A stretch of 64,000 nucleotides of DNA, taken from contig CACEQR010000002.1 in NCBI GenBank assembly GCA_902561765.1, positions 1-64,000 of the forward strand. The letters run 5' to 3'. Of this stretch, positions 6,539 to 56,271 are shown one piece after another. The notes beneath the pieces are model-generated. The model made no database searches, was not told the DNA's origin, and was given only the letters and a program-made list of their open reading frames with translations. The DNA is from an uncultured Pelagibacteraceae bacterium. Its GTDB lineage: Bacteria; Pseudomonadota; Alphaproteobacteria; Pelagibacterales; Pelagibacteraceae. The position numbers and the translations under genes are program-made. Every line of letters starts with the position of its first letter. The stretch's first letter is position 1.

Positions 6539-7347
6539 CTAAACATTCTTTTAATTCGTATACTATTTAAATGGTTTACAGGACCGTGACCTTTTCCTAA
6601 ATTTGGTTGCGTTCTTAATGAATGATTTACATATTTAATTGCCATATCACAAGATTTCTTTAATGTTTTTCCACATGCAAAGTAAGTTGTTATTGCACTC
6701 GAAAGTGTACAACCGGTTCCATGACTATTTTTTGTAAGGATTTTTCTATTTTTAAATATTTTTACTCCATTTTTATTTATAAACACATCTTGAATAGTTT
6801 TTGACTTTAAATGTCCACCTTTAATCAAAACATTCTGAGCACCTAATTTTAAAAGTTTTTTACCTGCTAAAATTACATCCTTTATGTTAGTTATTTTTAA
6901 ATCAGTTAATACCTCTGCCTCAGGAATATTTGGTGTAATTAGGTTAACTTTAGATAAAAATTTATTTTTTAAAATTTTTATCGCTTTATCATCAATCAAT
7001 TTTTTTCCGCCTTTTGCAATCATTACTGGATCTAGTATAATTTTTTTTGCATTAATTATTTTAAGTGATTTTATTACAGACTTTACGACACTCTCTGAAT
7101 GCAACATTCCAATTTTAACTGCATCAGGTTTAATATCTTTAGCTGTAAATTCTATTTGGTTAGAAATATCTTTATTGCTGATTGGTAGTATTGACTTAAC
7201 TCCTGTTGTATTTTGAATAGTAATAGCAGTAATAGCTGTCATTGCATATGAACCAAGCGTGGTGACTGTTTTTATATCTGCTTGTACGCCAGCACCACCA
7301 GAAGAGTCTGAGCCTGCTATAATTAAAATTTTAGATTTTATTTTCAA
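6535..7347 (-). CDS. thiD: Hydroxymethylpyrimidine / phosphomethylpyrimidine kinase
   Basis: A 270-residue ribokinase-fold enzyme that phosphorylates HMP and HMP-phosphate for thiamine synthesis. [17 protein letters not shown] at residues 10-26 is the substrate-binding start, and GTGC at 210-213 gives the anion hole and active-site Cys213. Together with thiE (27.2 kb) it supplies the pyrimidine branch and coupling step. No thiC is seen in the window, which fits the known SAR11 dependence on an external HMP-type precursor; that dependence is family knowledge and not shown here. Confidence 0.93.
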
Positions 7348-7348
7348 G

Positions 7349-8680
7349 CTACTTTATTGAATTTTTTACAATATTCACACATTGATGAAGTATAGCATGA
7401 TTCTCACTTTCACACATTATTCTTATCACAGGTTCTGTTCCAGATTTTCTAACTAACATTCTCCCACTACCTACTAATAATTTATTTGCCTTTTTTATTG
7501 CATTTTTACAATTCAGACTATCAATAATTGATTTATTTTTAACTACTACATTCTTTAATAATTGTGGGGTAGGAATAAAATTTTTAAATAACTCGCTAGC
7601 TTTCTTGCCCTTCCTCATAGAAAATAAAACTTCTAAAGCAACTAACAGACCATCACCAGTGGTTGCAAATTTACCAAGAATTATATGGCCTGACTGCTCC
7701 CCGCCTAAATTAAATTTACTTTTTTGCATCTCTTCTTTTACATATCTATCACCAACCTTAGACCTTAAAAATTTTATATTATTTTTTGAAAAGTATTTTT
7801 GTAATCCATAATTTGACATCTGGGTGCCAACAACTCCACCTTTTAATATTTTTTTTCTCTTCCATCTTTCTGCAAGCATAGCTATTATTTTATCACCATC
7901 AATAATTTTTCCTAATTCATCACAAATTATTATTCTGTCTGCATCTCCATCTAAAGAAATACCAATGTGTGATTTATTTTTTTTAGTATGATATTTAATT
8001 TTATTTGGAAAAGTAGATCCACATTTATCATTTATATTAAATCCATTAGGAGACGTTCCTATTTCATTAACTAAGGCGCCCAAAGATCTTAGCAATTGTG
8101 GTCCTGCTTTATAAGCTGCTCCATTTGCACAGTCTATTGTAATTCTTAAGCCTCTTAAATTAAATTGTTTCGGGAAATTGGTTTTTAATATTTCTATGTA
8201 TTTTTCTGTTCCATCTTCTAATCTTTTTACCCTACCTAATATTTCAGGATTCGATAAATTTTTTGAAACATTTGAGTCAATTAACTTTTCTATTTTATTT
8301 TCTATTTTATCAGATAATTTTAGTCCATCTGGACCAAACAATTTCAAACCATTATCATAATATGGATTATGTGATGCTGTAATCATGATTCCCAAATTTG
8401 CTCTCATTTTTTTTGTGAGCATTGCTAATCCATTTGTAGGCAAAGGTCCAAATGTAAATACATGCATTCCAGCCGATGTCAAACCAGAGACTAATGCTGG
8501 TTCCAATGTGTATCCAGATAACCTAGTATCTTTAGCAATAATAGCAATCTGTTTTAATTTTTTTTGGTTTTTAAAATATGTCCCAGCGGCTAAACCAAAT
8601 TTAAAAAACATGTCACCATTTATTTTAGAGCCATTAACTCTTCCTCTTATTCCATCCGTTCCAAAATATTTCTTACCCAT
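7349..8680 (-). CDS. glmM: Phosphoglucosamine mutase
   Basis: A 443-residue alpha-D-phosphohexomutase that makes glucosamine-1-phosphate for UDP-GlcNAc, peptidoglycan and LPS. The phospho-serine loop TASHNPYYDNG (Ser103), the metal loop DGDADR (about 244-249), GEQSGH and the C-terminal RKSGTEPVIR phosphate-binding loop are all present. It follows folP by 2 bp in the classic ftsH-folP-glmM order. The start ATG at 8678-8680 gives the usual MGKKYFGTDGIRG beginning. Confidence 0.96.
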   Translation of the reverse strand: MGKKYFGTDGIRGRVNGSKINGDMFFKFGLAAGTYFKNQKKLKQIAIIAKDTRLSGYTLEPALVSGLTSAGMHVFTFGPLPTNGLAMLTKKMRANLGIMITASHNPYYDNGLKLFGPDGLKLSDKIENKIEKLIDSNVSKNLSNPEILGRVKRLEDGTEKYIEILKTNFPKQFNLRGLRITIDCANGAAYKAGPQLLRSLGALVNEIGTSPNGFNINDKCGSTFPNKIKYHTKKNKSHIGISLDGDADRIIICDELGKIIDGDKIIAMLAERWKRKKILKGGVVGTQMSNYGLQKYFSKNNIKFLRSKVGDRYVKEEMQKSKFNLGGEQSGHIILGKFATTGDGLLVALEVLFSMRKGKKASELFKNFIPTPQLLKNVVVKNKSIIDSLNCKNAIKKANKLLVGSGRMLVRKSGTEPVIRIMCESENHAILHQCVNIVKNSIK

Positions 8681-14467: not shown

Positions 14468-15829
14468 TTAATTTCCCAGTAAAGAAGACCAGGATGGGTC
14501 TGAAGCGTCTGTCTCTGTTTTTACCAACCTCTCGTTGTATCCAGTTAAATCAATGGACCATAATTTTGCTGAAAATCCTTGACCCTTATCATCAGTTTTT
14601 GTTTCTCTATAAAATATGATAATTCTTCCATTTGGAGACCATGATGGCGCTTCTTGATAGAAGTTCTCAGTAAGCAGTCTTTCTCCAGTTCCATCCGTTC
14701 TCATAACACCAATGAAAAATTTTCCTTTATGAAGCTTTGTAAAAGCTATTAGATCTCCTCTAGGTGACCATACTGGAGTTCCATAAATACCTTTTCCAAA
14801 AGATATTCTTTTTACTTTTGATCCGTCACTTCTCATAACATAAATCTGTTGATAGCCACTTCTATCGGAATTAAAAGTGATAAATTTACCATCAGGTGAA
14901 TATGAAGGAGATGTATCTATTGATGGATGATCAGTTAGTTTTTCTTGGATGTTGGTTTCCAAATCTCTGACCCAAATTTCAGAATTACCATCTTTTGCTA
15001 AACTCATTATTATTTTTTTTCCATCGGGAGAAAATCTTGGCGCAAATGTCATCCCGGGAAAGTCTCCAACAACTTCTTGTTTGCCTGTTTCAATATTTAA
15101 CAGATAAACCCTTGGCATATTTCTAAAGTAAGACAAATAAGTTACCATTTGGTTTGTAGGATTGAATCTTGGTGTTAAAACTAATTCATTTCCTAAAGTT
15201 AAATATTTGGTATTGAAGCCATCTTGATCCATTATAGCTAATTTTTTAACTCTTTGCGTTTTAGGTCCTTCTTCTGAAACATAAATTATCCTAGTATCAA
15301 AGTAACCACTTTCTCCAGTCAAACGCTCATAAACTTTATCTGAGATTTTATGTCCTACTCTTCTCCAGTTAGTTGGCACTGTTGTTAATGAAAATCCATC
15401 AACCATCTTTGCTCCTAAAACATCCCACAGTTTAAATTCTATTTTAATATAATCTTTATTATTAATTATTTTAGAACTAACTTTGCCAGTAATCAAAACT
15501 TGAGATTTGATTAAAGTCCAATCTTCAAACCTCGGTTTCAAGTGTGCAATATCAGGTTTTTGTAAAAATGACTCTCTATCTAAAGTATCAAATAATCCAG
15601 TTTTGTTAAGGTTATTCTCTATAACTTTAGAAATTTCTAGACCTAAATTTTCAATGTTTAAATTTTTTTTAATTTTTTCTATAGAATTTTTATCTGTAAA
15701 AAAGGGTGAAACAGATATTGGTAATGGATCAAGATTTCCTCTAGTTATATCAATTTCTACAAGAGAATATGAAACTCCAGGTTTTAATAGAAAAATAAAA
15801 ATAAAAATAAAATAAAGTTTATTTCTCAT
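14468..15829 (-). CDS. tolB: Tol-Pal system beta-propeller protein TolB
   Basis: A 453-residue periplasmic protein with a signal peptide (about residues 1-22). The N-terminal alpha/beta domain is followed by a six-bladed propeller marked by repeats such as [24 protein letters not shown] and WSPNGRII. TolB binds Pal and links it to TolA during envelope constriction. The start overlaps the tolA stop by 4 bases (ATGA), which indicates translational coupling. Confidence 0.95.
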
Positions 15830-16893
15830 CCACCCATCATTTCTACTGGATTAAATCTTAATATCATTGTTTTCCACTTTTCGTAACTTGCTGTAGGTAA
15901 ATTTTTAATAGGATTACAGAGACGAATTGCTCTGATTACGCTTTGAGCTATTTGATAAAAAGCTCCTTCACCTGGTGTATTCATTCTTACATGATCTAAC
16001 ATTTCAAAGTTTTTTACAATTCCATTTTTTTCTAAATTTAATTTTACAGTAACCAAAAGATCTTCACTATAAGGGAGACCAGTAGGCACAGACCAGCAAG
16101 TATAAATTTGATGTCTTACAGCATATTCTGTAGTTACGCTTAATTTGGAAAGTTTCATAGATTTATCTTCAGATTGTGTTACTCCATCAGCTTTTTTTTT
16201 AACCTCACCTATATCCTCATATTGCTTAGCTATTAAACCTTTGATTTTATTTACATCAATATCTTGTTTTTCATACTCAGAAACTTGCTTTGCCTTTTCA
16301 TCTTTTAGAGGTTTTTTAATTTTCGCAAATTCCTTTAACACTTCATCATTTTCTGCTTTTTTTTCAATTTTTTTTCTTTTTTCTTTTTCAACGACCGTTT
16401 TTTTAATCTCTTTAGAGGGTTGTTGCTCTGTCTCTTGCTTGGCCTCTACTTTTTCTTGTTTTTTATCAGGTAGCGGAACAGCCTCTGACTTATCTAACTT
16501 AACTTTTTCTTGTTTTTTTTCAGGAACAGGTATTTTTTTTGATTTTGATAAATCTATCTCATCTTTTTGATTATCTAATTTAACTTGTTTTTTTATATCT
16601 TTTTTTACCTCTTTTGGAGGAGCTTGTTCTGATAGAAGTTTTTTATTATCATTTTTTGCCTTTTCAATAATTTTTGCTGCCTTTGGAGCATATGGAATAT
16701 TTGTCTTTTCGGATATCTGAATCAATTCTACCGACACGATTGGTAATAATTCTAAGGGTTTTTTAACAACAAAAGGAAGTGCAAATATTGTAGCAAAAAA
16801 TATTGTTCCATGAAAGATGATAGAAAATAACATTCCAAAAGAAAAATAATTAGTCCCAATTGAAAAACCACTAAATGAAATTTTATTAAACAA
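15826..16893 (-). CDS. tolA: TolA-like energy-transducing protein
   Basis: A 355-residue protein with one N-terminal membrane anchor (about residues 18-45). A long Lys/Glu-rich helical region (about 60-240) spans the periplasm, and a compact C-terminal domain (about 255-350) carries a YxVRxQIYxCW-type motif typical of TolA/TonB C-terminal domains. It transmits proton-motive force from TolQR to TolB/Pal. Identity rests on architecture and its place between tolR and tolB. Confidence 0.9.
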
Positions 16894-16895
16894 TT

Positions 16896-17312
16896 TTATC
16901 TTTCTTTATATGGTTCAGAGATTAAGGCAACTTTAGTAAAACCTGAACCTGAAAGCTTACCCATTACTTCTAATACTCTTCCATAGTTTATTGTTTTATC
17001 TCCTCTTACATAAATTCTTGTATCTGTTCTATTATTTGAAACTGCAAGAATTTTTTTAATTAAATTATCAAATTCAATTTTTGTTTCTTGAATAAAAACT
17101 TCACCTTTGGAATTTATGGTTAATGTTAGTGGCTCACTTTCCTCTGGCAAAGTATCTGCAGACGTTTCAGGTAGATCAACCTGAACTCCTACAGTTAGCA
17201 ATGGTGCAGTTACCATAAAAATAATTAAAAGAACAAGCATTACATCCACAAATGGAGTTACATTTATTTCACTCATTGGTTCTCTTTCTGAGGACTTGAA
17301 GTTAAATGCCAT
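16896..17312 (-). CDS. tolR: Tol-Pal / biopolymer transport protein TolR (ExbD family)
   Basis: A 138-residue ExbD/TolR protein with a single membrane helix at about 18-38. The helix contains the conserved aspartate that takes part in proton flow (NVTPFVDVMLVLLIIFMV). A periplasmic domain with IYVRGDKTINYGRVLEVM follows. It forms the stator complex with TolQ. It starts 1 bp after tolQ and is 2 bp from tolA. Confidence 0.95.
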   Translation of the reverse strand: MAFNFKSSEREPMSEINVTPFVDVMLVLLIIFMVTAPLLTVGVQVDLPETSADTLPEESEPLTLTINSKGEVFIQETKIEFDNLIKKILAVSNNRTDTRIYVRGDKTINYGRVLEVMGKLSGSGFTKVALISEPYKER

Positions 17313-17313
17313 A

Positions 17314-17988
17314 TTAAATTATTGAGATAAATCTTTTGGAAAAATTTTCTAATTTTTGTGAATATTTTTTGGAATCATTTCCAAATTTATTATATGCAAT
17401 TACTGCAGGTATAGCAGCCAATAAACCTAAGGCTGTTGCAAATAACGCCTCTGCAATTCCAGGTGCAACTATAGCCAAACTAGTGTTTCTTGATATAGCA
17501 ATTGATTGAAAAGAATTCATTATTCCCCATACTGTTCCAAAAAGTCCAATAAATGGGGCAGTCGATCCTACTGTTGCAAGAAAAGTAAATTTATTATTAA
17601 CTATATTCATCTGTTTTTCTATATTTACTTCTAGAATATTTTCAAGTCTTTGACTTATATTAGATTTAGATCTTGATTTCATAACAGCTTGCATAGAGTC
17701 TTTAAACAGTCTGGCCATTGGATTATCTAGTGACGCAGGAAGACTGTTATAAAATGTTTCTGCTGATTTAGATTTCCAAAATCTTTCCTCAAATTCTTCA
17801 GAGTCTTTATTTATTTTTCTAAACATCATGATTTTATCAAAAATTATCGCCCAAGAATAAACTGAGCTAGCGATTAAAATTATAATTACTGATTTAACAA
17901 TAAAATCTGCTCTTAAAAATAAACTTAAAATCGAAAAATCTGTATTACTTGCTATTCCAACTGCTTGGGAAGTTATATCTGGTTCCAT
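17314..17988 (-). CDS. tolQ: Tol-Pal / proton channel protein TolQ (ExbB family)
   Basis: A 224-residue membrane protein with three membrane helices: about residues 30-48, 133-160 and 170-195. The conserved ExbB/TolQ motif ATVGSTAPFIGLFGTVWGIM begins at about 138, and IAEALFATALGLLAAIPAV follows. It forms the proton channel that drives TolA. The usual ybgC thioesterase gene is not found upstream; instead a RuvC homologue is next. Confidence 0.95.
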   Translation of the reverse strand: MEPDITSQAVGIASNTDFSILSLFLRADFIVKSVIIILIASSVYSWAIIFDKIMMFRKINKDSEEFEERFWKSKSAETFYNSLPASLDNPMARLFKDSMQAVMKSRSKSNISQRLENILEVNIEKQMNIVNNKFTFLATVGSTAPFIGLFGTVWGIMNSFQSIAISRNTSLAIVAPGIAEALFATALGLLAAIPAVIAYNKFGNDSKKYSQKLENFSKRFISII

Positions 17989-33934: not shown

Positions 33935-34051
33935 GCCTGGCAACGTCCTACTCTTCCATGTCTTAAGACAAAGTACCATCGGCGCAGAAAGGCTTGACTT
34001 CCGAGTTCGGAATGGGATCGGGTATAACCCTTTCGCAATAATCACCAGGCA
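33935..34051 (-). rRNA. rrf: 5S ribosomal RNA
   Basis: The minus strand begins TGCCTGGTG and ends CGTTGCCAGGC, which form the terminal helix. Conserved internal parts are readable, such as CCGAACTCGGAAGTCAAGCC and GCGCCGATGGTACT. The length is about 117 nt. No 16S or 23S gene is adjacent. In SAR11 the 5S gene is known to be separated from 16S/23S by hypervariable region 2, which fits the polysaccharide island that begins upstream of it. Confidence 0.96.
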
Positions 34052-51865: not shown

Positions 51866-53674
51866 ATGAAAATTTGTATCGTAACCACTCCAATTAGACC
51901 AATACCAACTCAGTTTCCTCCTATGGGTTCGATGTTTATCATTCAATCATTAAGAGAGGAAGGTCATGTTGTTGACTTTTTCCATATTGATTATCATAGA
52001 TACACACACAATGAGATATTAGATTATTTTAAAAAAAATAAATATGATGCGGTAGGTATTAGTGCAGTGGTTTCTACGGCTTATGCATATACAAAGTATA
52101 TATCTGAAATAATTTACAATTCTAACCCTGATTGTATAATTTTTTTAGGCGGTGGTTTGGCTGCAAGTGCAAATGTATTGCTTGAGAAAACAAAAGTTAA
52201 ATATTGTGTAATAGGTGATGGTGAATTAATAGCAAAAAATTTAATAAGGTCTATTGAACAAAAAAAGACTAGTGATTTAGATATTTTAAATATCAAAGGT
52301 ATTACATTTAAAAATTCAAAAGGTGAAATAATTTTTACTGGATATGATAAACCTCTAACTGCAGAAAATTTATTACTTCCTGATTACACTATCTTAGAAG
52401 AGGATGGTTCTATAGATCACTATATCGTAGAACAAGCTGTGCATAGATTTCATCCTGATAGAGAACAGGATACTAAAACAAAGTCTGCTTTTGTAATTAC
52501 TTCAAAAGGTTGTGTGGCTAGATGCACTTTCTGTCACAGATTTGAAAAAGGGTACAGAGTTATGCCTGTTCAAAAAATTATCAATTATATGCTTTTTCTT
52601 AGAAAAAAATATGGAGTAAATTTTATTTATGTTGGAGATGAAAATTTTGGATCCTATAAAGACTCTACAAAAGAATTAGTAGCATTGATGGGTAAGCATG
52701 GATTTAAATGGTCTGCTGCTGGAGTAAGAGCACATACAGTCGATTTAGAGATGCTAAAATTTTGGAAGAAAAATGGATGTGAGTCAATTTTATATGGAAT
52801 AGAGTCTGGAAGTGAGAGAATGTTGAGGGTAATGGAAAAGAAAATTAAACGTATTTCCAATTTAAATGCAATTAAAGCGACATACGAAGCAGGTTTGCCA
52901 ACAATAATTCAATATGTCATTGGAATGCCTGGCGAAACTGATGAAACAATCGAAGAAAGTTATAATTTTTTATTAGAAACTATGAAATATTATCCTGATA
53001 ATTTTAGACAGCAATATGATTTTGTAACTAGTATTAATTATGCTCAAGCGTTACCTGGTACACCTTTATATGAATATGCCAGAGAACACGGCTATATAGG
53101 AAAATCTACAGAGGATGAGGAAGAATATTTAATAAATATAAGCGATAAGGACGCTTACAGTGTGGAACACTTTATCAATTACACGAAGCAACCATTGCTT
53201 AAGGTTTACTCCTGGAGGCATTTGATCAAATGGAAAATTTGGAGGGAACATGCAAAACATAATCTTAAAATTAATCTTGGAAAATTTACTATTTTAGTTG
53301 GGTTGATATCAATTTTATTAAAAAAAATCTTTCCATTTCAATACAAGACAAAACTAGAAAAAATACTTCATAAATATAGATTTACTAGAAAGCAAAAAAA
53401 AGATGCATTTATTAACTTTGGAAACAAAGTTAGAGCAACAGAAGGTCTTCGACTGTTATTTCCTTGGAATAAGTTTACATATCCTTTTCTTTGTTTGATT
53501 ATTGCTTACCACGAGTCAAAAAGTTTAAAATGGACATTTAAATTAATATTTGAGCATTTAATTTGGAGTTTTGGAAAGAGACCAGAGCTTAAGGATTTGC
53601 CTTCGATATCTCTTCGTAAAATTGTAAACATCAATGACAAAGATCAAACTCTTGAACTTAGAAAAGGTAGATAA
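51866..53674 (+). CDS. B12-binding-type radical SAM protein
   Basis: About 602 residues from the ATG at 51866 (a TTG at 51857 is possible). An N-terminal cobalamin-binding-like Rossmann domain (about residues 5-135) with FPPMGSMFIIQSLREEGH precedes a radical SAM domain with the cluster motif CVARCTFC (CX3CX2C, about 216-223). YGIESGSERMLRVMEKK and GMPGETDETIEESY follow. About 150 extra residues at the C-terminus have no domain I recognise. Members of this group methylate or rearrange unreactive carbons. It lies directly upstream of a cobalamin riboswitch and BtuB-like gene. Confidence 0.87.
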   Translation: MKICIVTTPIRPIPTQFPPMGSMFIIQSLREEGHVVDFFHIDYHRYTHNEILDYFKKNKYDAVGISAVVSTAYAYTKYISEIIYNSNPDCIIFLGGGLAASANVLLEKTKVKYCVIGDGELIAKNLIRSIEQKKTSDLDILNIKGITFKNSKGEIIFTGYDKPLTAENLLLPDYTILEEDGSIDHYIVEQAVHRFHPDREQDTKTKSAFVITSKGCVARCTFCHRFEKGYRVMPVQKIINYMLFLRKKYGVNFIYVGDENFGSYKDSTKELVALMGKHGFKWSAAGVRAHTVDLEMLKFWKKNGCESILYGIESGSERMLRVMEKKIKRISNLNAIKATYEAGLPTIIQYVIGMPGETDETIEESYNFLLETMKYYPDNFRQQYDFVTSINYAQALPGTPLYEYAREHGYIGKSTEDEEEYLINISDKDAYSVEHFINYTKQPLLKVYSWRHLIKWKIWREHAKHNLKINLGKFTILVGLISILLKKIFPFQYKTKLEKILHKYRFTRKQKKDAFINFGNKVRATEGLRLLFPWNKFTYPFLCLIIAYHESKSLKWTFKLIFEHLIWSFGKRPELKDLPSISLRKIVNINDKDQTLELRKGR

Positions 53675-53721
53675 TTTTAGTTTATAAATTTGACAATCAA
53701 AAAAAACTCTATATATTTTTA

Positions 53722-53843
53722 TTGTACTGAAATGCATGGTGGGAAATCAGTGTGAAATTCATTGGCTGTTCCTGCAACCGTAAAGTCGGAGCGCCACCCA
53801 GTATAGTCCACTGCTGAATGAAGGCCAGGAAAAGTCTAGTTCT
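53722..53843 (+). ncRNA. Cobalamin riboswitch
   Basis: The leader before the TonB-dependent receptor contains the conserved cobalamin-aptamer elements in order: GGGAAATCAGTGTGAAATTC, GGCTGTTCCTGCAACCGTAA, the B12 box GCGCCACCCAGTA (53791-53803), and the 3' element GAAGGCCAGGAAAAGTCTAG. In this class cobalamin binding usually hides the ribosome site or ends transcription, so uptake genes are expressed when cobalamin is scarce. The receptor start lies about 25-40 nt downstream. Confidence 0.9.
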
Positions 53844-53880
53844 ATAATATAAAATTAGGCAGAGGCATTTGAAATTATTT

Positions 53881-55740
53881 ATGTCGAAGCTTATTTTATA
53901 TATTTTATTTATTAGCATAATAATAACATCTAAATCCTATTCTGAGAGTAAATGTGAATGGGCTAATGAACCAGGTGTAACATGTATTAATATTGTAAAA
54001 AAAATTAATAATACTTCAGAATTTTCAGAGGAAAATATCAACAAATACATAATAACCAGAGAAGAAATTAATAAAGCTGGTTCTAATGATTTAATAGATA
54101 TTTTAAAAACTATACCTGGTTTAAACTTTACTCAATCAGGCCCAAAAGGACAACAAGCGTCATTATTCATGAGGGGGACTGGTTCAAACCATACATTAGT
54201 TATGATTAATGGTATTCCTATAAACGACCAATCTACTACACAAGGTTTGCACGATTTTGGTGTAGACTTTATTCAAACTATTCAACAAATAGAAGTTTTT
54301 CCTGGATCCAGTGCTTCTCAATTTGGAACAAATGCCATAGGAGGTGCTATAAATATTATTTTAGCTGGAGACTATGAAGATAAAATAACCTTCTTTTCAG
54401 ACAATAAATCAAATTATAGTTTCTCTTCAAATAAAACATCATTTTTTGATGAAAATGTTATTAATTTTAAAATTGGAGCCGTAAGGGAAGAAAAATTAAG
54501 TGTTAGAAGTGATGATAATGAAGATAAAGATAAAGTCAATAATTTGACTTTAAATTTAAACCATGAAAAATACTTATCTCCATCAACAAAATTTTTTAAC
54601 ACAATTTATACAAGGCAAACTATAAGTGAATACGATGGATCTGCATCCAATCAAGAGGGTTTTGAGGGAGACAATAAAATGTTTTCATTCCAATCAGGTT
54701 TAAAATCAAATGATAGAAATAAAAACTATGATGAAACAATTTTTTATTATACAAAATATGATAGGGAGTATGATGAAAGTGGAACCATTGATAATTATTA
54801 CAGTGATATATTCGGTCTAAAATATCAACTCTCAAGAAAATACAATGAAATTTTTTCTTATGGCTTAGGAAGTGATTATAGCTACAATTGGGGGGAATTT
54901 GAAAATAGAGGCTCTTATCAAGCTTCTACAAAAGGAAATATTGATAATTTTGCATTATTTTCAAATCTAGGGATAAAAATAGCTGATAATAAAAATTTAT
55001 CTCTGTTTTTAAGAAATGATAATCATAAAAAGACAGGTAACAATTCTACATATAAAATCAGCTACAATCATAAAATTAAAAATTTAGATTTCAATATTGC
55101 AAGGATGACTGGATTAAGAAATCCAACCATATATGAACTTTTTGGGACAGATAATTCTGGATATTCAGGAAATAGAGATTTAAATCCTGAAAAAAGTGTC
55201 ACTAATGAGATTGGTTTTAAACTAAACTTAAAACAAAACATAGATTTTTCAAGTACCTTTTTCAAATCAAATATAAATAACAATATTGAATATATAAACA
55301 ATAAATACCAAAATGATAATGATGATATTGATCTTAATCAGAATGGTGTTGATTTTCTATTGGAGGTAAAAGAAAAAAACACAAGATTGAAATTTTATTC
55401 TTCATTTTTATCCTCAAAAAAGGAAAATGGAGCAGATCAGTTAAGACGTCCTAAAAAAAATTACGGAATTAACTATTTTAAAAAAGTATATGAAGGTAAA
55501 AATAAAGAATTTAATTTTAATATTTTATATAATCATTATGGAAAACATTTTGATACACACAGTGGAAATTACAGTACAGTAGAGATGGATAGTACAGATA
55601 TAATTGACTTAATTTTGAACAAAAAATTTGGAAATTTTGATTTTTATTTAAATATTTCAAATCTATTTGATGAGACTTATCAGAGACCACATGGCTACAA
55701 TCAAGAAAAAAGGTTTTTTAAAATAGGCGTTAAATATTAA
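53881..55740 (+). CDS. btuB: TonB-dependent outer-membrane receptor, BtuB-like
   Basis: About 619 residues with a signal peptide (about 1-20) and plug domain: ITREEINKAGSNDLIDILK, PGLNFTQSGP, SLFMRGTGSNHTLVMINGIP, and IEVFPGSSASQFGTNAIGGAI. A beta-barrel follows, ending in the family's terminal aromatic strand (FFKIGVKY). The cobalamin riboswitch in the leader makes cobalamin or a related corrinoid the likely cargo. The ATG at 53881 gives a clean signal peptide; TTG at 53869, nearer the GAGG at 53862-53865, is an alternative. No TonB gene is seen in the window. Confidence 0.88.
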   Translation: MSKLILYILFISIIITSKSYSESKCEWANEPGVTCINIVKKINNTSEFSEENINKYIITREEINKAGSNDLIDILKTIPGLNFTQSGPKGQQASLFMRGTGSNHTLVMINGIPINDQSTTQGLHDFGVDFIQTIQQIEVFPGSSASQFGTNAIGGAINIILAGDYEDKITFFSDNKSNYSFSSNKTSFFDENVINFKIGAVREEKLSVRSDDNEDKDKVNNLTLNLNHEKYLSPSTKFFNTIYTRQTISEYDGSASNQEGFEGDNKMFSFQSGLKSNDRNKNYDETIFYYTKYDREYDESGTIDNYYSDIFGLKYQLSRKYNEIFSYGLGSDYSYNWGEFENRGSYQASTKGNIDNFALFSNLGIKIADNKNLSLFLRNDNHKKTGNNSTYKISYNHKIKNLDFNIARMTGLRNPTIYELFGTDNSGYSGNRDLNPEKSVTNEIGFKLNLKQNIDFSSTFFKSNINNNIEYINNKYQNDNDDIDLNQNGVDFLLEVKEKNTRLKFYSSFLSSKKENGADQLRRPKKNYGINYFKKVYEGKNKEFNFNILYNHYGKHFDTHSGNYSTVEMDSTDIIDLILNKKFGNFDFYLNISNLFDETYQRPHGYNQEKRFFKIGVKY

Positions 55741-55779
55741 AAAACTTGTTTTATTTAAATTGAATGTTAATTTTACACC

Positions 55780-56271
55780 ATGAACTATTTAAAATATGTC
55801 ATTGGAATAATTCTAGTTCTATCTGCTAGTAGATTTATTCCTCATCCACCAAATTTTACAAGTTTAATTGCTTTGAGCTTTTACATTCCAGTTTTTCTTG
55901 GAATAAAATTTCTACCAGCATTAATTATTGCATTTATAATCACTGATTACATTATAGGTTTTCACTCTTTAGTAATATTCACTTGGGGAAGTATTTTAAT
56001 TATTGGTTTAGTCTCAATATATTTTAAAAATACAATAAATTATAGAATATTAGGAGCGTTAACTGGAGCTCTAATCTTTTTTATAATATCGAATTTTGGA
56101 GTTTGGACATTAGGATCTTATGGTTATTCTATAAATGGATTGATTAACTGTTATATAATGGCATTACCTTTTTTTGGATATACATTGATATCAACAATTA
56201 TTTTTTCTGCACTGATTGAAACTGTTAACTGGGTATATAAAAAATATTATAAAAAAGGCTTATATAATTAG
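55780..56271 (+). CDS. DUF6580-like membrane protein, possible transporter component
   Basis: A 163-residue protein with about five membrane helices. SASRFIPHPPNFTSLIALSF at residues 19-38 is the DUF6580-type signature. The overall shape resembles substrate-binding (S) components of ECF vitamin transporters, and proteins of this group are often near cobalamin riboswitches. It lies 39 bp after the receptor with no terminator hairpin visible, so it may be under the same riboswitch. An inner-membrane step for cobalamin or precursor uptake is plausible but unproven. Confidence 0.65.
   Translation: MNYLKYVIGIILVLSASRFIPHPPNFTSLIALSFYIPVFLGIKFLPALIIAFIITDYIIGFHSLVIFTWGSILIIGLVSIYFKNTINYRILGALTGALIFFIISNFGVWTLGSYGYSINGLINCYIMALPFFGYTLISTIIFSALIETVNWVYKKYYKKGLYN

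Follow-up and report, generated by a model that had tools for sequence, protein, structure and literature searches.

BtuM of Thiobacillus denitrificans is a published precedent for a protein with the fold of an energy-coupling factor (ECF) S-component that supports uptake of cobalamin (vitamin B12) without an ECF module. According to an excerpt of its description, BtuM works without such a module, is co-localised with BtuB and occurs in bacteria without BtuCDF (PMC6072759). A locus that joins a BtuB-like outer-membrane receptor to a small membrane protein of the DUF6580 family lies in a 64,000-nucleotide stretch of DNA, hereafter the window, from an uncultured SAR11 bacterium of the Pelagibacteraceae (assembly GCA_902561765.1, contig CACEQR010000002.1, positions 1 to 64,000). 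There, the gene of a B12-binding/radical S-adenosylmethionine (SAM) protein is followed by a cobalamin riboswitch, the receptor gene (btuB) and the DUF6580 gene, the last three of which are called the cassette below. The parts of this locus, their folds and families, their recurrence and their co-occurrence were computed here, and the locus is real and recurrent. It is best explained, with a probability of roughly three in four, as a cobalamin import unit that regulates itself and is coupled with a radical SAM enzyme dependent on cobalamin, within a variable genome island.

All four elements lie on the plus strand, and Pfam, Rfam and NCBIfam scores confirm the order, strand and coordinates given in a preliminary description made from the sequence letters (Table 1). 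The enzyme matches the Pfam B12-binding domain at 51.8 bits (cut-off 32.1) and Radical_SAM at 80.1 bits (cut-off 29.5). The genome that contains the window (G000; 1.21 Mb in 36 contigs, 84% complete) holds one TonB-plug domain, one B12-binding domain over cut-off and one AdoCbl-II riboswitch in genome-wide profile searches. That riboswitch, proposed earlier as a cobalamin riboswitch to be checked with Infernal and Rfam, matches RF01689 over its full length (model 1-81 of 81) at 98.3 bits against a gathering cut-off of 36.5 (E 4.3e-24), far from the low score that would have spoken against it, and is the only RF01689 match of the genome. The canonical RF00174 class is ruled out for this element because the classical model has no match in the genome at E 0.001. 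An L5-L13 kissing loop formed with a downstream hairpin is a feature of the RF01689 class, and here the P13 loop CAGGAA (53826-53831) pairs with the aptamer loop UUCCUG (53769-53774).

A survey of 397 genomes drawn from the order, most of them incomplete, placed RF01689 over cut-off in 48, all within the window's family. The structure counted over these 48 cassettes (alignment A2) comprises the Rfam aptamer, the downstream hairpin, the L5 kissing loop and an outer stem. Across the whole structure 94.4% of cells are paired, and 15 pairs show changes on both sides. The kissing loop is paired in 95.1% of cells, with three of its six pairs doubly changed, each in a single sequence. The outer stem (88.6% paired) is less sure because one of its pairs is unpaired in 29 of the 48 sequences. 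None of 500 shuffles reached the observed paired share, number of doubly changed pairs or covariation score; the number of pair types is less distinctive, being reached by 95 of the 500. When the structure is slid along the alignment, the paired share drops to 32-45%. This pattern of base pairing indicates that the riboswitch is under selection. A promoter-like site ends 6 bp before the aptamer, so the import genes are probably on a transcript of their own, with the window radical SAM gene outside it. Such sites are common in the A+T-rich DNA of the window (41 found against 33.2 expected from shuffles), and a score of 9 or more at the same spacing from the aptamer occurs in 20 of the 48 cassettes versus 7.7% of shuffled upstream sequences. 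The literature on the ligand preference of the RF01689 class yielded, in the excerpts available, only a passing mention (PMC9600662).

The receptor carries a plug domain (PF07715, 77.4 bits) and a barrel domain (PF00593, 51.1 bits), both above cut-off, and its plug is the sole one in the window genome. Its best NCBIfam match is the TonB-B12 profile TIGR01779 at 173.5 bits, below the equivalog cut-off of 599.7, and it is hence called BtuB-like only; its six best PDB sequence matches are all BtuB chains (best E 1.6e-23). The receptors of 47 relatives keep, after the signal peptide, one of two short N-terminal strands: IPIIVIA in 28, and Cys...PCLTI in 18 plus one variant (locus L048). As read from the letters, these strands look like a TonB box. 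One of the two types has a conserved cysteine pair just before the strand (53953-53985 in the window, and in relatives). A receptor tree built by a quick method falls into two deep clades, with the genera g1, g5 and g6 present in both, a pattern that fits either exchange or an old duplication followed by loss. The possibility that the very long BtuB frames of L063 and L068 are fusions was rejected, as the frames span masked runs of N; these runs hide part of both cassettes.

The systems that would normally accompany such a receptor were sought in 73 genomes, of which 48 contain the cassette, 23 have no receptor and two are receptor-bearing members of the sister family. TonB (PF03544) was found in none of the 73, while the E. 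coli, Caulobacter and Bacteroides controls match. The ExbB-type profile PF01618 gave one clear match in 67 genomes, receptor-bearing and receptor-free alike, and none in six; extra weak matches occur in G386 (27.4 bits, over cut-off) and G360 (18.8 bits). In the window the PF01618 match is TolQ, placed within a tolQRAB-pal gene order, and the TolA protein there gives no Pfam match at E 0.01. The BtuC-type profile PF01032 (FecCD) gave weak matches in 57 of the 73 genomes, 22 of them over cut-off, the best at 30.3 bits; the two that were checked as BtuC candidates, in the window genome and in G280, are ABC-3/ZnuB proteins (233 and 226 bits). The check for TonB/ExbBD and BtuCDF called for in the preliminary description thus came back empty for the window genome, with no TonB, no ExbB beyond TolQ and no BtuC found. 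A TonB partner with a dedicated ExbB was likewise not found in the 73 genomes, where a divergent TonB may have escaped the profile, given that TolA too goes unrecognised by Pfam.

In E. coli, TolQR is able to stand in partly for ExbBD, and this, together with the lack of a detected TonB, makes TolQRA the leading guess for what energises BtuB. A normal but divergent TonB-ExbBD system that escaped the profiles is a minor yet real possibility: the failure of Pfam to recognise the window TolA shows how a divergent TonB could escape, and the 47 receptors compared retain the TonB-box-like strand. ExbB, however, is easy to recognise, yet a second PF01618 match over cut-off was found only in G386, where it is weak; the window match belongs to the tol-pal cluster, and the TonB profile is silent in all 73 genomes while positive in the three controls.

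Passage across the inner membrane is probably the task of the DUF6580 protein, which matches PF20221 at 95.9 bits (cut-off 27). An AlphaFold2 model built from 80 sequences has six helices, a predicted local distance difference test (pLDDT) score of 90 and a predicted template modelling score of 0.84. When this model was re-aligned against known structures, the first 20 rows were all S-component-fold proteins (Z 9.0-14.1), with the next row at Z 8.0; BtuM with cyanocobalamin aligned at Z 13.9 (root-mean-square deviation 3.0 over 154 residues, 14% identity). Judged from the model, DUF6580 has an ECF S-component fold, in agreement with the S-component-like character first proposed for it. Foldseek alone counts against the assignment, its best hit being a riboflavin S-component at a weak E 0.14, as does the aligner's warning that helical models may reach Z near 14 through a common arrangement; the uniform run of S-component proteins in the first 20 rows argues against mere helix arrangement. 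Searched against PDB sequences, the DUF6580 profile hits only 6FNP chain A (E 0.5) up to an E-value of 10; the excerpted eLife paper gives 6FNP as ECF-CbrT, a B12 transporter. Within the family, Cys124 is near-invariant.

Genomic association points the same way. DUF6580 is rare in Pseudomonadota: among 398 genomes drawn, two outside SAR11 exceed the cut-off and two more match weakly, and both strong loci show the order RF00174 riboswitch, BtuB-like receptor, DUF6580. A scan of named genomes returned at least 567 relatives, from which 80 loci were kept, 32 from SAR11 and 48 from SAR116, SAR86, Omnitrophota, Bacteroidota, Neomarinimicrobiota and others. Of the 32 SAR11 loci, 30 have a BtuB-like gene; of the 48 others, 20 have one at most 2.5 kb from DUF6580, as judged with five tblastn queries. 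Of the 33 non-SAR11 loci scanned with Rfam, 19 contain a cobalamin riboswitch, adjoining the gene or up to about 5 kb off; this and the fold make DUF6580 a probable B12 transporter of the inner membrane that works alone. The other 14 loci, in which no cobalamin riboswitch exceeded its cut-off, are a point on the opposite side. A literature search found nothing on DUF6580, and nothing that looked relevant appeared under BtuN as a possible older name.

It is unlikely that DUF6580 instead imports another solute or cobalt, or has an accessory role, with cobalamin entering otherwise. The S-component fold does serve many vitamins and metals, with folate, biotin, thiamin, riboflavin and cobalt proteins at similar Z, and DUF6580 is present in Patescibacteria and other groups in which no BtuB was found. 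Against this, DUF6580 recurs near BtuB-like genes and cobalamin riboswitches in Alphaproteobacteria, Omnitrophota, Bacteroidota and one deltaproteobacterium, and other routes are scarce: the BtuC-type match of the window genome is ZnuB, and EcfT (PF02361), without a match in the window genome, exceeds its cut-off in one of the 73 genomes, with one further weak match. That EcfT-like match (G389:C2:118715-119245, locus L198) is the only one over cut-off among the 48 cassette-bearing genomes.

Individual DUF6580 loci vary in their surroundings. In Levybacteria, which are not known to have an outer membrane, locus L163, one of the 19 with a cobalamin riboswitch, has an AdoCbl-II element (7338-7416) about 0.6 kb before DUF6580 (8001-8426) and no BtuB was found there, an arrangement that would be compatible with possible B12 import. 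The SAR11 locus L122 combines DUF6580 with two radical SAM matches, and no BtuB was found in the 8 kb upstream. In SAR86, an IMES-1 RNA motif (L156:10054-10246, 123.1 bits) lies about 1.6 kb from DUF6580.

The distribution of the cassette supports a link between import and use. A receptor plug was found in 98 of the 397 genomes, exactly one in each; 54 of these genomes belong to the window's family and 44 to its sister family. Within the window's family (about 344 genomes, of which about 290 are receptor-free; both figures are estimates that take the sister family as 53, and 60 would change little), a strong B12-binding match is present in 45 of the 54 receptor-bearing genomes versus 13 of the receptor-free ones (Fisher p about 2e-35, uncorrected for kinship). 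Strong here means E 1e-8 or better, a limit set after a GuaB match near 1e-4 had been seen. Twenty members of the genus listed as plug-negative, 97-100% complete, are also without the RF01689 riboswitch. In the 55 regions fetched around riboswitch matches (47 from the window's family and eight from the sister family, about 6 kb on each side), DUF6580 follows BtuB in 50; in the remaining five (L058, L063, L065, L068 and L073) the sequence ends at a contig edge or runs into masked bases.

The sister family appears to use a different riboswitch class. All 36 further weak RF01689 matches fall in it, and the four that were rescanned as AdoCbl-II candidates (L081, L083, L084 and L088) proved to be classical RF00174 elements at 109-122 bits, placed before BtuB-DUF6580. 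Many sister-family genomes contain two B12-binding frames of about 720-735 and 653 residues, which by their size would be methylmalonyl-CoA mutase subunits. Riboswitch class thus seems to track the kind of B12 enzyme.

Of the 47 relatives in the window's family, 26 (27 of 48 with the window counted) have a B12-type radical SAM gene abutting the cassette, where abutting means a gap of up to about 0.2 kb, measured downstream from the nominal cassette end, or a position between btuB and DUF6580. Counted anywhere in the fetched stretch, such a gene occurs in 32 of the 47 relatives, in addition to the window. The placement of the 26 abutting genes varies: eight are downstream and codirectional, seven upstream and codirectional, seven upstream and opposite, and four downstream and opposite. 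In L055 (3109-4710) and L056 (741-2408) the gene separates btuB from DUF6580 and looks like an insertion into the cassette. At E 0.001, the radical SAM domain was detected in all 38 radical SAM proteins aligned and the B12-binding domain in 34 of them; the exceptions are the proteins of L040 and L043, one of the three in L054 and one of the two in L058. In two proteins (L045:10495-12147 and L056:741-2408) the B12-binding domain is on the C-terminal rather than the N-terminal side. At 40% identity over at least 300 residues the 34 enzymes form 21 groups, and the window enzyme has a single ortholog beside a cassette, in G339, 61% identical. Sequence comparison thus indicates that the import unit is constant and the radical SAM enzyme varies as exchangeable cargo. 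The mobile character ascribed to the trait at the outset fits its patchy occurrence among the 397 genomes and 48 cassettes, the exchangeable enzyme and the sharing of genera between BtuB clades; the idea of one fixed enzyme trait does not hold, as the adjoining enzyme differs between relatives.

Several observations weigh against a coupling of import to the neighbouring enzyme. The window enzyme gene lies upstream of the riboswitch and is therefore not under its control, whereas the G339 ortholog lies downstream, after DUF6580. No B12-type radical SAM gene was seen in the stretches of 15 of the 47 relatives, some of these stretches being truncated. Nine of the 54 receptor-bearing genomes are without a strong B12-binding match: five of these have weaker evidence (G001, G136, G244, G286 and G323), G138, G230 and G362 have no match, and G154 has only a GuaB-level one (3.5e-4). 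Conversely, 13 family genomes, in a sample mostly incomplete, carry a B12-binding domain without a detected receptor. Six receptor-bearing family genomes have no RF01689 match (G099, G136, G147, G252, G301 and G323); in their loci DUF6580 adjoins BtuB in L113, L114, L116 and L117 and lies about 4 kb away in L115, while none was found in the stretch around BtuB in L112. A cobalamin riboswitch was not found in five of these six stretches, and the sixth (L117) has one truncated by the end of the contig, so control by the RF01689 riboswitch is not universal. In two single-contig SAR11 genomes, G007:C1 (1,237,371 bp) and G001:C1 (1,211,322 bp), riboswitch, BtuB and DUF6580 are all present, yet no B12-type radical SAM gene was seen in the roughly 6 kb on either side; a single B12-binding match lies elsewhere in each genome (3.8e-10 and 1.1e-6, respectively).

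Cassette and radical SAM genes might accordingly be neighbours only because both reside in a hypervariable island, the imported B12 serving another enzyme such as class II ribonucleotide reductase. Cassettes do sit among surface-polysaccharide genes, two loci lie beside ribosomal RNA (rRNA) genes, and four receptor-bearing genomes show no clear B12 domain in a search that did not include class II ribonucleotide reductase. Such hitch-hiking is nonetheless quite improbable: B12-binding matches are rare without the receptor and common with it, kinship being uncorrected in that comparison, and an enzyme gene directly adjoins 27 of the 48 cassettes, in two of them lying inside, which is more than shared island residence predicts.

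The enzyme itself belongs to no named family. No NCBIfam equivalog was reached, and identities as BchE (127.4 bits against 481.35 needed) and PhpK (107.6 against 600) were rejected. Its AlphaFold2 model is good over the first 430 or so residues, mostly with pLDDT above 80, and falls below 50 at residues 429-602. Structural matches to MgmA (Z 28.3), AprD4 (27.2), OxsB (26.3), TsrM (25.2) and CysS (24.9) mark the modelled protein as a cobalamin-type radical SAM protein without a named family; kinship of fold with cobalamin-dependent enzymes such as OxsB and TsrM speaks against the earlier worry that the radical SAM domain might lack cobalamin contacts. AprD4, the second-best match, we take to be cobalamin-independent, so that a B12-binding-type domain is no proof of cobalamin use; a vestigial domain of this kind in the window enzyme is nevertheless very improbable, for although AprD4 is a close match and PF02310 marks a fold and not a bound cofactor, further top matches are cobalamin enzymes, the window genome has a cobalamin uptake unit with no other B12-binding protein over cut-off, and receptor and B12-binding domain co-occur across the family. 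The genome is also not rich in other B12 enzymes, another outcome that the preliminary description had left to be checked: one B12-binding protein exceeds the cut-off (at 84% completeness, and in a search that did not include class II ribonucleotide reductase), and the second, weak match was identified as GuaB. The surrounding island suggests a surface polysaccharide or lipid as a possible substrate.

From these elements we infer the ligand, the direction of regulation, transport and its energising by TolQRA, and the reaction and its substrate, as follows. Riboswitches of this type usually shut a gene off upon binding. At low intracellular cobalamin, the promoter at 53690 would drive a leader with an empty AdoCbl-II aptamer, and btuB and the DUF6580 gene would be expressed. 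BtuB would move cobalamin across the outer membrane, and DUF6580, acting alone in the manner of BtuM, across the inner membrane. The cobalamin would then be loaded onto the adjoining B12/radical SAM enzyme, whose probable task is to methylate a product of the island or to modify it by a similar radical reaction. Binding of cobalamin to the aptamer would close the L5-L13 kissing loop and shut expression down. Across SAR11, the import unit would be kept and the radical SAM cargo exchanged.

Table 1. Positions of the locus elements and of the Tol genes in the window.
Feature	Position	Strand	Evidence
B12-binding/radical SAM protein, 602 residues, CxxxCxxC at residues 216-223	51866..53674	+	Pfam PF02310 and PF04055 above cut-off
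Sigma-70-like promoter TTGACA-16-TATATT of the riboswitch operon	53690..53717	+	Consensus match, 11/12
AdoCbl-II (RF01689) cobalamin riboswitch aptamer	53724..53804	+	98.3 bits, gathering 36.5
Expression platform: P13 hairpin inside stem 53808-53814 / 53859-53865	53805..53866	+	Alignment A2 and pair counts
BtuB-like TonB-plug outer-membrane receptor; ATG start 53881, alternative TTG 53869	53881..55740	+	PF07715 and PF00593
Six-helix membrane protein of the DUF6580 family; predicted B12 transporter of the inner membrane, working alone	55780..56271	+	PF20221
TolQ, sole ExbB-family match of the genome; putative BtuB energiser	17314..17988	-	PF01618, 128.7 bits
TolR (ExbD family); putative energiser	16896..17312	-	PF02472, 106 bits
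TolA by position in tolQRAB-pal; putative TonB stand-in	15826..16893	-	Gene order

The locus lies in an island that runs from 34143 to the end of the window, with a G+C content of 23.2% versus 28.8% before 33900. Glycosyltransferase, sugar-nucleotide and polysaccharide deacetylase types are among the neighbouring genes, partly assigned by reading the sequences. The radical SAM gene has a G+C content of 30.3% against 18.6-21.7% in its upstream neighbours, and 11 of the 12 radical SAM genes checked in relatives likewise exceed their regions; such a difference from A+T-rich surroundings fits a recent arrival. A 5S gene (33935-34049) borders the island in the window, and rRNA genes are likewise no more than a few kb from BtuB at L117, where it is paired with DUF6580, and at L112, where it stands alone; this placement fits a variable region at the rRNA operon. 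Searches of viral contigs with the DUF6580 and radical SAM proteins returned nothing useful, and among 102 plasmid records none reached 80% coverage, with identity below 27% among the 15 matches listed.

SAR11 bacteria are among the most abundant marine bacteria, and they are usually treated as B12-independent. In the excerpted text of PMC3400609, two Pelagibacter ubique strains are without a TonB-dependent transporter. If the proposed explanation is true, part of SAR11 consumes B12, the cassette being present in about one-sixth of the family genomes drawn (receptor in 54 of about 344). It would also offer a functional assignment for DUF6580, a family present in many phyla, and it raises the question of how an outer-membrane receptor works where no TonB system is found. 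A bolder and doubtful extension would give SAR11 a minimal B12 import line made of two proteins, BtuB and DUF6580, without TonB, ExbBD, BtuCDF or an ECF module; BtuB would be Tol-energised, DUF6580 would be a new and widespread family of solitary B12 permeases, and divergent cobalamin radical SAM enzymes would be swapped to vary cell-surface chemistry. Among open-licence publications on cobalamin riboswitches, BtuB/TonB or B12 radical SAM proteins in SAR11 or Pelagibacter, no title or abstract opening describes the cassette. Each part is of a kind already known; to the extent of these searches, novelty lies in how the parts are combined, in a setting where no TonB system was detected, in the exchange of the enzyme and in the role that DUF6580 probably plays. 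The preliminary interpretation therefore survives in part: regulated uptake beside a presumptive B12 enzyme, with riboswitch, BtuB-like receptor and DUF6580 next to the radical SAM gene, stands together with the mobile trait, whereas the adjoining enzyme is not a single fixed one and the expected TonB and BtuC partners were not found.

Each part of the locus has a described counterpart. The riboswitch agrees with the AdoCbl-II/Cbl-II class (RF01689) in its full-length match, score and kissing loop, and no difference is evident. Like BtuB of E. coli, the window receptor consists of plug and barrel, and BtuB chains are its best PDB sequence matches; it differs in falling below the equivalog cut-off, in its SAR11 relatives dividing into two N-terminal types, and in belonging to a genome without a detected TonB, separate ExbB or BtuC. 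The class B radical SAM enzymes (OxsB, TsrM, CysS, MgmA and BchE) share with the window enzyme an N-terminal B12-binding domain, a radical SAM domain and the CxxxCxxC motif, but the window enzyme reaches no named family and its C-terminal 170 or so residues are modelled with low confidence. CbrT of ECF-CbrT is, in the excerpt of its description, a B12-specific S-component, and it is the sole PDB sequence match of the DUF6580 profile; in contrast, CbrT needs its ECF module, solitary CbrT having given no growth (PMC5997447), whereas the window genome has no EcfT match. BtuM, as excerpted (PMC6072759), has the same small six-helix S-component fold as that modelled for DUF6580, yet the two proteins are only 14% identical, no sequence match to BtuM chains is found, and Cys124 of DUF6580 stands at another sequence position than Cys80 of BtuM.

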